Assembly: GCA_028871455.1 (NCBI GenBank)
Contig: JAGWNF010000004.1
Coordinates: 1 to 64,000, forward strand
Source of the DNA: Alphaproteobacteria bacterium
Lineage (GTDB): Bacteria; Pseudomonadota; Alphaproteobacteria; ATCC43930; CGMCC-115725
Direction: 5' to 3'
DNA length: 64,000 nucleotides
This document shows, piece by piece, positions 29,165 through 31,958 of this stretch. Position 1 is the stretch's first letter. The number at the start of each line of letters is the position of its first letter. A program made the translations under genes and the position numbers. The notes under the pieces were generated by a model. That model was not told the DNA's origin. It saw nothing but the letters and a program-made list of their open reading frames with translations, and did no database searches.

Positions 29165-29353
29165 TCAAATTTTGGGCACGTGGGTCGCAGCGTTCCCGGT
29201 CAGCCGCGCTCTCAAACAAGCCGGACAGAGGCAGCCCTCGTCCTTCCGCTCCGGCATCGGCAGGCGCGACAGCTGCGCGCACCAGCAATCCGGACCCGGA
29301 TTGCATTCGAACGATGCGCCGCAGGTGGCGCAGCGGATTTCCGCGTCGGGCAC
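29165..29353 (-). CDS. Cysteine-rich CWC family protein
   Basis: 62 residues with seven or more Cys arranged as C-x2-C (RCATCG), then C-x4-CWC (CNPGPDCWC) and C-x-C-x2-C (CLCPAC). The PDCWC string names the family and a zinc-binding role is likely. GTG start at 29353 directly abuts the stop of the BNR gene (TAA then GTG), so it is the last gene of the MoaD-like/membrane/BNR/CWC operon and its translation probably depends on the upstream gene. Confidence 0.82.
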   Translation of the reverse strand: MPDAEIRCATCGASFECNPGPDCWCAQLSRLPMPERKDEGCLCPACLRARLTGNAATHVPKI

Positions 29354-30439
29354 TTAAGCCGCAAACCGCACGGCGTTGACCGGCGGCAGGCGGCCTTCGG
29401 GCGCGGTCCAGCTGTCGCCGCCGTCCGCCGAAATCCACAAGCCGCCGCTGGTCGAGCCGAAGGCGAGCGTCGTGCCGTCGGCGGCGACGTCGAGGCCGTG
29501 GCGCAGCACCAGGTCGTAGGCGTGGCGCTGCGGCAGACCCTTGTGCAGGACATCGAAACTCCGGCCGCCGTCGCGCGTGCGCGCGACCACGACCTTGCCG
29601 TCGACCGGCACGCGCTTCTCGTCCTTGATCGCCGGCACGAACCACGCGGTGTCCTTGTCGCGCGGATGCGCCGCCACGGTGAAGCCGAACTTCGACGGCT
29701 TGATCGCGGTGACCTCGCTCCAGCTCAGGCCGGAATCCGCCGAGCGGAAGACGCCGTTGTGGTGCTGGCACCAGACGGTGTCGGGATGCGCGGCGCAGCG
29801 CGCCAGGCGGTGGATGTCCATGGCGATCGGGTCCTCGCGCCGCTCGGGCGGCATGTATTCGTTGTACATGCCGCCGCGGTTCATCAGGCGCCACGACTTG
29901 CCGGCGTCGTGGCTCGCCCAGACGCCGGCGGTCGAGACACCGACGCGAATCTCGTCGGGCCGGCGCGGATCGACCAGCACGGCGCTGATGCCGGGCTGCT
30001 CGCCGCCGGCGACGCCCATCCATTGCTTGCGCTCGGGCATCGTCCACAGCGCTTCGATCAAATGCCAGCTCTCGCCGGAATCGTCGGAGCGGAACAAGCC
30101 GCCCGGCATGGTGCCGGCCCACAGCCGGCCCGGCACGAAGCCGGGCTCGAGCGACCAGATCTTGCCGAGCGACCAGGGATGCGGATCGTCGGTCGCGTTC
30201 TCCGGCTTCGGCGGGAACGCCGGCACGCCGAGCTCGCGCCAGGCGTTGCCTTCGCGCTTCCACAGATGCGTGCCGAAATGGCCGAGATCGAGCGCGGCGT
30301 AGAGCGCGCCGTCGAGCGGCAGCAGCGCCGAGACCGGATCGCCGAGGAAATGCACTTCGGCGATCTGCCACGCGCCTTTGCCGGCGCGCGCGATCTCGAA
30401 CAGGCCCTTGCGGGTTCCGACATAAACGCGATCGGTCAT
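29354..30439 (-). CDS. BNR/sialidase-like beta-propeller protein
   Basis: 361 residues forming a likely beta-propeller, with Asp-box (BNR) repeats of the S-x-D-x-G-x-(S/T)-W type: SDDSGESW, SHDAGKSW, SADSGLSW, ISADGGDSW and TRDGGRSF. It starts MTDRVYVGTRKGLFEI and has no signal peptide, so it is cytoplasmic, unlike true sialidases, and no catalytic Arg triad is evident. It follows a 71-residue membrane protein by 21 bp. Its partner may be the MoaD/ubiquitin-like protein of the same operon. Confidence 0.85.
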   Translation of the reverse strand: MTDRVYVGTRKGLFEIARAGKGAWQIAEVHFLGDPVSALLPLDGALYAALDLGHFGTHLWKREGNAWRELGVPAFPPKPENATDDPHPWSLGKIWSLEPGFVPGRLWAGTMPGGLFRSDDSGESWHLIEALWTMPERKQWMGVAGGEQPGISAVLVDPRRPDEIRVGVSTAGVWASHDAGKSWRLMNRGGMYNEYMPPERREDPIAMDIHRLARCAAHPDTVWCQHHNGVFRSADSGLSWSEVTAIKPSKFGFTVAAHPRDKDTAWFVPAIKDEKRVPVDGKVVVARTRDGGRSFDVLHKGLPQRHAYDLVLRHGLDVAADGTTLAFGSTSGGLWISADGGDSWTAPEGRLPPVNAVRFAA

Positions 30440-30460
30440 TTGGTCCTCCGGTTCACGCGC

Positions 30461-30676
30461 TCACCGACACAGTGCCTGCCAATGGGCGCACAGTCCGGGC
30501 GCGACGATGGTCGCGAGCTCGACCGGCCACAGAAAGACCAGCCACGCCGTCAGCTTGATCAGGTCCGCGGTCGAGATCATCGGGTTCGCCGCCGACCAGC
30601 CATACAGCGCATCGGCGAGTCCGATCGTGAGATAGATCGCGATGACGGTGCGGGGCTTGAACTTCAAAATCGTCAT
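30461..30676 (-). CDS. Small two-helix membrane protein, 71 residues
   Basis: Two hydrophobic helices (VIAIYLTIGLADALYGW and LIKLTAWLVFLWPVELATIVAPGL) with basic N-terminus MTILKFKPR. The ATG at 30676 overlaps the stop of the MoaD-like gene (ATGA). No family recognised. Position between a ubiquitin-like protein and a beta-propeller suggests it may tether one of them, but that is only context. Confidence 0.72.
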   Translation of the reverse strand: MTILKFKPRTVIAIYLTIGLADALYGWSAANPMISTADLIKLTAWLVFLWPVELATIVAPGLCAHWQALCR

Positions 30677-30942
30677 CCGCCGGTCAACGCCTGGAAGACA
30701 TAGATGCAGTCCGCCGCCGCGACCGGGTCGCTCAGCCGGACGCGGTCGCGCACCGGCTTGCCGTTGACGTAGCAGGCGACGTGCCGCCGCAAGCCGCCCT
30801 GATCGTCGAGTACGTAGCCCTTGAGCGCTGGCCGCGTCCCGAAGACCGCGCCGAGCGCCTCGCCCACGGTGGCGCCGCCGACCTCGGCCGGCGGCGCCTG
30901 GAGGAAGCGCTCGAGCGCGCGGGTGAAGGCGACGGTCGGCAT
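30673..30942 (-). CDS. MoaD/ThiS (ubiquitin-fold) protein with Gly-Gly end
   Basis: 89 residues: MPTVAFTRALERFLQAPP, GGATVGEALGAVFGTRPALKGYVLDDQGGLRRHVACYVNGKPV, RLSDPVAAADCIYVFQALTGG. The closing Gly-Gly and the strand order are those of MoaD/ThiS sulfur carriers and archaeal SAMPs. No moaE, thiG or E1-like gene is nearby; instead it leads an operon with a membrane protein, a BNR propeller and a CWC protein. Its target could be a sulfur-transfer pathway or protein conjugation. Confidence 0.87.
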   Translation of the reverse strand: MPTVAFTRALERFLQAPPAEVGGATVGEALGAVFGTRPALKGYVLDDQGGLRRHVACYVNGKPVRDRVRLSDPVAAADCIYVFQALTGG

Positions 30943-31517: not shown

Positions 31518-31958
31518 ATGTCAAACACTGTTTCGTTCGCGACCACGGTGCACGTGCGGGATACTTGCCTCTGCCTGCATCTCCAGCGCGCGGCGCGCGC
31601 CGTGGCGCGGCGCTTCGACCAGGCGCTGCGGCCGCTCGGTATCACCAACGGCCAGTTCTCGCTGATGATGTCGCTCAACCGGCCGGAGCCGCCGACCATG
31701 GGCGACGTCGCGACGCTGCTGGCGATGGACCGCACCACCCTCACCGCCGCCTTGAAGCCGCTGGAGCGTCAGGGCCTAGTGACCGTCGGCGTTGATCCGG
31801 CCGACAAGCGCAGCCGCCGGCTGGCCTTGACCGCCGAGGGCCGCACCCGGCTCGCCAAGGCGGTGCCGATCTGGAAACGGACTCACGCCGCGCTCGACCG
31901 CGATCTCGGCTGGCCCAACGCGGCGCGGCTGCGGGCCGATCTGCGCGGGCTGTCGTAA
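31518..31958 (+). CDS. MarR-family transcriptional regulator
   Basis: 146 residues with a winged helix: FDQALRPLGITNGQFSLMMSLNR, TMGDVATLLAMDRTTLTAALKPLERQGLVTVGVDPADKRSRRLALTAEG, which contains the D-x-R-(S)-R wing of MarR proteins. An N-terminal DTCLCLHLQRAARAVARRFD segment with a Cys pair (C16, C18) could sense oxidants or metals. It is divergent from the VOC gene with a palindromic operator between. No ribosome binding site is seen before the ATG. Confidence 0.92.
   Translation: MSNTVSFATTVHVRDTCLCLHLQRAARAVARRFDQALRPLGITNGQFSLMMSLNRPEPPTMGDVATLLAMDRTTLTAALKPLERQGLVTVGVDPADKRSRRLALTAEGRTRLAKAVPIWKRTHAALDRDLGWPNAARLRADLRGLS

Follow-up and report, generated by a model that had tools for sequence, protein, structure and literature searches.

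In the 64,000-nt stretch of alphaproteobacterial DNA analysed here (the window), a small ubiquitin-like protein (UBL) ending in Gly-Gly is encoded together with a seven-bladed Asp-box (BNR) propeller. The pairing is solid and, as far as the sequences tell, the two proteins are probably a sulfur delivery or modification pair. At a probability of roughly 0.4 we favour a dedicated Gly-Gly sulfur carrier that would be charged by MoeB and would serve an acceptor propeller with a conserved top-face site.

Four genes follow each other on the minus strand. The UBL (30942-30673) is an 89-aa ThiS/MoaD-fold protein ending in ...QALTGG, assigned by Pfam (ThiS PF02597, 27.7 bits, cut-off 22.5) and by our alignment A1. 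It overlaps by 4 nt (ATGA) with a hydrophobic, membrane-type ORF of 71 aa (30676-30461), which lies between the UBL and the propeller and ends 21 nt before the latter. The propeller (30439-29354, 361 aa) is assigned by its BNR match (PF02012, 28.7 bits, cut-off 27) and by homology to the solved structure 3B7F; no signal peptide is visible in the window protein. With 0 nt spacing it is followed by a CWC-type Cys-rich protein of 62 aa with a GTG start (29353-29165), which scores 23.5 bits against PF14375 Cys_rich_CWC, just short of the cut-off of 24. Upstream of the UBL a VOC/PhnB-like gene assigned by Pfam (31424-30975, minus strand, start taken at ATG 31424) is probably the first gene of the transcription unit, and a Pfam-assigned MarR-family regulator (31518-31958, plus strand) is divergent to it. 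E1, moaE and thi genes are not found near the pair in the window; the copies of the genome are located on other contigs. The preliminary description of the locus had listed the same four products with junctions of 4, 21 and 0 nt and had reported no molybdopterin, thiamin or E1 genes nearby, all of which is confirmed here.

The same description had proposed to check whether the order of the four genes is conserved, which is not borne out. The membrane ORF is absent from all 80 related loci analysed (the best 80 of 403 relatives), and a search of 61 genomes returned only its own match and one weak match (E=0.003, 34%). Among the same best 80 of 403, a CWC gene follows the propeller in just two loci, both congeneric. 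Moreover, in two congeners other material occupies the gap between UBL and propeller in place of the 71-aa ORF. The 71-aa ORF is a local addition outside the conserved unit and the CWC gene a genus-level addition. Since neither is kept across loci, the finding is a two-gene module with local additions, and the absence of the membrane ORF together with the rarity of CWC in relatives rules out the four-gene operon as a unit. As to the content of the two gaps, one (L028 6280-6390) holds an inverted-repeat-like intergenic element (ATGCCCGCGGAAGCGGGCATCC...) and no gene, the other (L026 6293-6607) an ORF which by eye we take to resemble a small EthD-type protein.

The pair itself is strongly conserved. 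In a genus-to-class sample of 61 genomes the UBL was matched in 21, and a propeller adjoins it in 19 loci outside the genome of the window; 19 of 19 relatives match ThiS PF02597. A one-motif scan of 84,980 genomes yielded 403 encoded UBL relatives, the best 80 of which were analysed as loci. A propeller is located directly downstream of the UBL in every one of these 80, mostly less than 100 nt apart, with a partial propeller match in two (contig end or divergent ends). Judged by record titles, the loci come among others from Pseudomonadota, Myxococcota and Planctomycetota isolates and from MAGs titled Verrucomicrobiales and Acidobacteria. The adjacency of UBL and propeller exceeds chance. The tail is equally constant, with ALSGG or ALTGG in 80/80 UBLs of this type (type A, best 80 of 403). 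It forms the exact C-terminus in 76 of the 80, while 1-4 residues follow in three and an extension of ~65 residues in one, a MAG. Gly88-Gly89 is invariant in alignment A1.

No third gene family is common to most of the 80 loci. Six of the 80 have a VOC gene no more than 1 kb upstream of the UBL, and in 17/80 a MarR gene lies upstream of and divergent to the pair. In alphaproteobacterial loci close to that of the window, MarR, ArsR, SRPBCC, VOC or YciI genes adjoin the pair (the names ArsR, SRPBCC and YciI are presumptive and follow our own reading of the sequences), which is seldom the case in other lineages. On a Pseudomonas aeruginosa plasmid the order is YciI, RNA polymerase sigma factor, VOC, 'MoaD/ThiS family protein' and 'exo-alpha-sialidase', the pair being annotated under separate generic names. 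For defence and phage families PADLOC gave no match and PHROG a single weak one of unknown function.

The nearest solved structure of the propeller is 3B7F (phmmer 2e-39, homology across the whole propeller). Structural models of two type-A relatives of the window protein superimpose on it with Z of 48 and 47.7 (rmsd 2.0-2.2 Å, 351 residues); the seven blades were counted from the model strands and place the protein with the 3B7F-type propellers. GH74 propellers (xyloglucanase) are structural neighbours only, with Z about 27. The score against the F510_1955 glycosylhydrolase family (NF045728) is 54.3 bits at a cut-off of 175, and 'exo-alpha-sialidase' (cf. sialidase GH33) is a database label on the propeller. 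3B7F itself is Reut_B4987 of Ralstonia eutropha JMP134, a seven-bladed Asp-box propeller of the 'YP_299179.1 family'. It is a structural-genomics entry labelled only as putative glycosyl hydrolase, for which we found no ubiquitin-like partner described, and it is nearer to the propellers of reversed gene order treated below (type B) than to type A.

Apart from the Asp-boxes and structural Trp/Gly/Pro positions, which were left out, Lys11, Trp140, His210, Gln225, His227, Arg276 and usually Arg313 are invariant in both types. By the model strands the polar ones sit in loops of the B-C or D-A kind or at the strand ends beside these loops, which in the models is the top face, opposite the Asp-boxes. 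A study of the Asp-box (PMC2716378) names this face as the functional one in such propellers. Six of the seven residues are kept in 3B7F, where Arg313 aligns with Asp. A conserved cysteine is not found in the propeller. The top-face residues are also retained in propellers without adjacent UBL, hence the site is more than a receptor for this UBL.

In a phylum sample the propeller is found in 26 of 299 genomes, that of the window counted. Nine share at least 49% identity with the window propeller (type A) and 17 share 33-38% (type B). The UBL lies upstream of the propeller in 9/9 type A and downstream in 8/17 type B, all in Proteobacteria. This reversed order is also seen in Arthrobacter (Actinomycetota), whose UBL ends in AGG, and Gly-Gly is likewise present in the UBLs of type-B pairs. 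Adjacency that is kept in two gene orders argues for a joint function. For the remaining nine type-B propellers, of which eight belong to the single family f33, no UBL was detected within 1.5 kb, and a genome-wide profile search of these nine genomes revealed no clear UBL of this kind; the weak matches seen in three of them could come from other ThiS/MoaD proteins. A Streptomyces propeller has no adjacent UBL either, and a Nonomuraea UBL (L138 5081-5392) adjoins its propeller with Gly-Gly lost (...VLPALA*). The UBL-less cases show that the propeller can manage without this UBL.

Four top-face residues of the propeller (54, 208, 226 and 314; window 29354-30439) switch between the types, for example Asp208 in type A to mostly Cys in type B, and the switch tracks gene order and UBL tail sequence. 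The UBL-less propeller of Rhodobacter sp. CZR27 adjoins egtB and egtD of ergothioneine biosynthesis (L137). A link to ergothioneine was discarded, as egtB/egtD stand beside this one Rhodobacter propeller and elsewhere only a weak EgtB-like match was seen. The UBL-less propellers share no convincing common neighbours.

A physical interaction was evaluated in silico. In-frame loci allowed read-through fusions in which the UBL stop is read as Gly, with linkers of ~34 and ~20 residues. Fusions of two species were folded using AlphaFold2, with paired rows supplied by the remaining in-frame loci. The pTM is 0.86 in both models, at pLDDT 90-92. With the UBL misplaced by 20 Å and the rest perfect, pTM could not exceed 0.849 and 0.837, respectively. 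The observed value is above the ceiling for an unplaced UBL, which suggests that the UBL is placed; with realistic core and linker terms we estimate an implied UBL error of ~4 and ~7 Å. The pTM of the two fusions thus lends moderate, indirect support to a UBL that docks on the propeller. UBL residues 88-89 are disordered in both models. The top mutual-information couplings of UBL Phe13 point mostly to top-face loops (83 pairs, ~51 effective), but were calculated with no null for shared ancestry and were set aside. The proposal of the preliminary description that the Gly-Gly protein acts together with the propeller is well supported by the adjacency in 80/80 loci, the second gene order and the fusion models; its operon of four does not, as the additions are local.

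Docking of this kind also fits the main rival of the carrier reading. Here the UBL would be a non-catalytic or regulatory subunit which stabilises or gates a propeller acting as enzyme or binding protein, and the tail would serve docking alone or be a relic. UBL-less propellers keep the same top-face residues, the tail-less UBL of Nonomuraea still adjoins its propeller and the models imply docking without an ordered tail, all in line with such a subunit. However, Gly-Gly is kept in the 80 type-A loci and in the type-B pairs, beyond what docking needs, and we consider this explanation rather unlikely.

The UBL belongs to the ThiS/MoaD superfamily, based on a profile score above the cut-off and the C-terminal Gly-Gly. 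It does not pair with MoaE, which is absent near the pair in all 80 loci, and moaD-moaE lie elsewhere. Neither does it have a thiG/thiO context, thiO-thiS-thiG-thiE being located on another contig. The genome thus holds a moaD-moaE pair and a thiS of its own, separate from the locus. As in CysO or E1-JAB operons an E1 would be adjacent, these do not apply either; a MoeB-like gene is near 1/80 loci. The only full-length, clear E1 homolog of the genome is MoeB (259 aa), on another contig, which makes it the sole candidate found, should the UBL be E1-activated. MoeB is probably the activating enzyme of the UBL. Among the 39 genomes with a propeller that were screened, 38 also encode E1 homologs. 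The only MoeB gene of the genome and the end of a gene resembling cysteine synthase overlap (contig C10, L003 455-2229), possibly a link of E1 and sulfur supply.

The favoured carrier reading can be put as a series of steps. The UBL would be a dedicated sulfur carrier, distinct from MoaD and ThiS. Housekeeping MoeB would adenylate it in trans and probably convert it to the thiocarboxylate. The charged UBL would then dock on the cytosolic seven-bladed Asp-box propeller, the top-face site of which may accept the sulfur or else process a small anionic substrate. The model parallels ThiS serving ThiG and MoaD serving MoaE; by this analogy a Gly-Gly carrier beside one protein, with the E1 in trans, is most simply read as sulfur carrier plus acceptor. 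Counting against a strict carrier model are the nine type-B propellers and the one of Streptomyces without UBL as well as the tail-less UBL of Nonomuraea. That the propeller conserves no cysteine, and keeps its top-face residues where the UBL is missing, likewise weighs against the carrier reading.

Sequence alone does not discriminate between a sulfur carrier and a protein modifier. In the latter case the UBL would form conjugates with lysines, as SAMP1 does in archaea, and the propeller would be its substrate adaptor or chief target. Propellers are common adaptors. SAMP1 is moreover the closest characterised sequence relative: the UBL scores 43.7 bits against NF041918, and SAMP1 chains are the best PDB matches of its profile (E 1.6e-9). 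Nevertheless the family score is under the cut-off of 60, the match to Prok-JAB PF14464 in the genome is partial and sub-threshold (21.6 bits, cut-off 25), and the pair is not accompanied by an E1 gene (MoeB near 1/80 loci). Hence a modifier appears improbable to us.

A spare small subunit of molybdopterin synthase that backs up MoaD, with the propeller as molybdoenzyme accessory, is very unlikely: MoaE does occur in 39/39 propeller-bearing genomes searched, yet it is present in 258/299 genomes (86%) of the phylum sample regardless, so that this co-occurrence tells nothing about a role in molybdopterin synthesis, and moaD-moaE is intact and separate from the pair. For the same reason, the genome having its own moaD-moaE and thiS, the ordinary moaE partnership that the preliminary description had named as the case against its proposal is unlikely. 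A mere accident of position on a shared housekeeping transcript, with the two products doing unrelated work, would agree with VOC, YciI, SRPBCC and regulator neighbours that differ between lineages, but is hardly credible in view of the 80/80 adjacency across phyla and the second gene order.

Bacterial ubiquitin-like carriers are known from a handful of pathways, each of which is defined by the partner of the carrier. MoaD-MoaE and ThiS-ThiG likewise combine a small Gly-Gly beta-grasp carrier with an acceptor encoded beside it, and their E1 is often encoded elsewhere. In contrast to these, the acceptor here would be a propeller without conserved Cys, and both canonical pairs are present separately in the genome. 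SAMP1 of Haloferax volcanii resembles the UBL in sequence and Gly-Gly tail but is archaeal, and we know of no link of SAMP1 to a propeller. ThiS/MoaD-like proteins outside cofactor operons are also known from bacterial operons that encode E1 and often JAB (Iyer et al. 2006, PMC1779556), unlike which the UBL-propeller pair has as a rule no adjacent E1. The terms 'propeller' and 'BNR' are absent from the main text of that study, and we found no description of the pair in the open-access literature. The idea of an undescribed ubiquitin-like system widespread in bacteria, in which the MoeB-charged UBL would form a stable complex with the propeller as a new sulfur acceptor enzyme or E3-like platform, is tentative and somewhat doubtful.

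In the present case the partner is a cytosolic propeller that carries the database label sialidase. The pair turns up again and again in different phyla, with Pseudomonas aeruginosa and Burkholderia among the bacteria that have it. Because the partner is defined, the carrier chemistry becomes directly testable. The 'sialidase' label, in turn, may mislead for hundreds of genomes.
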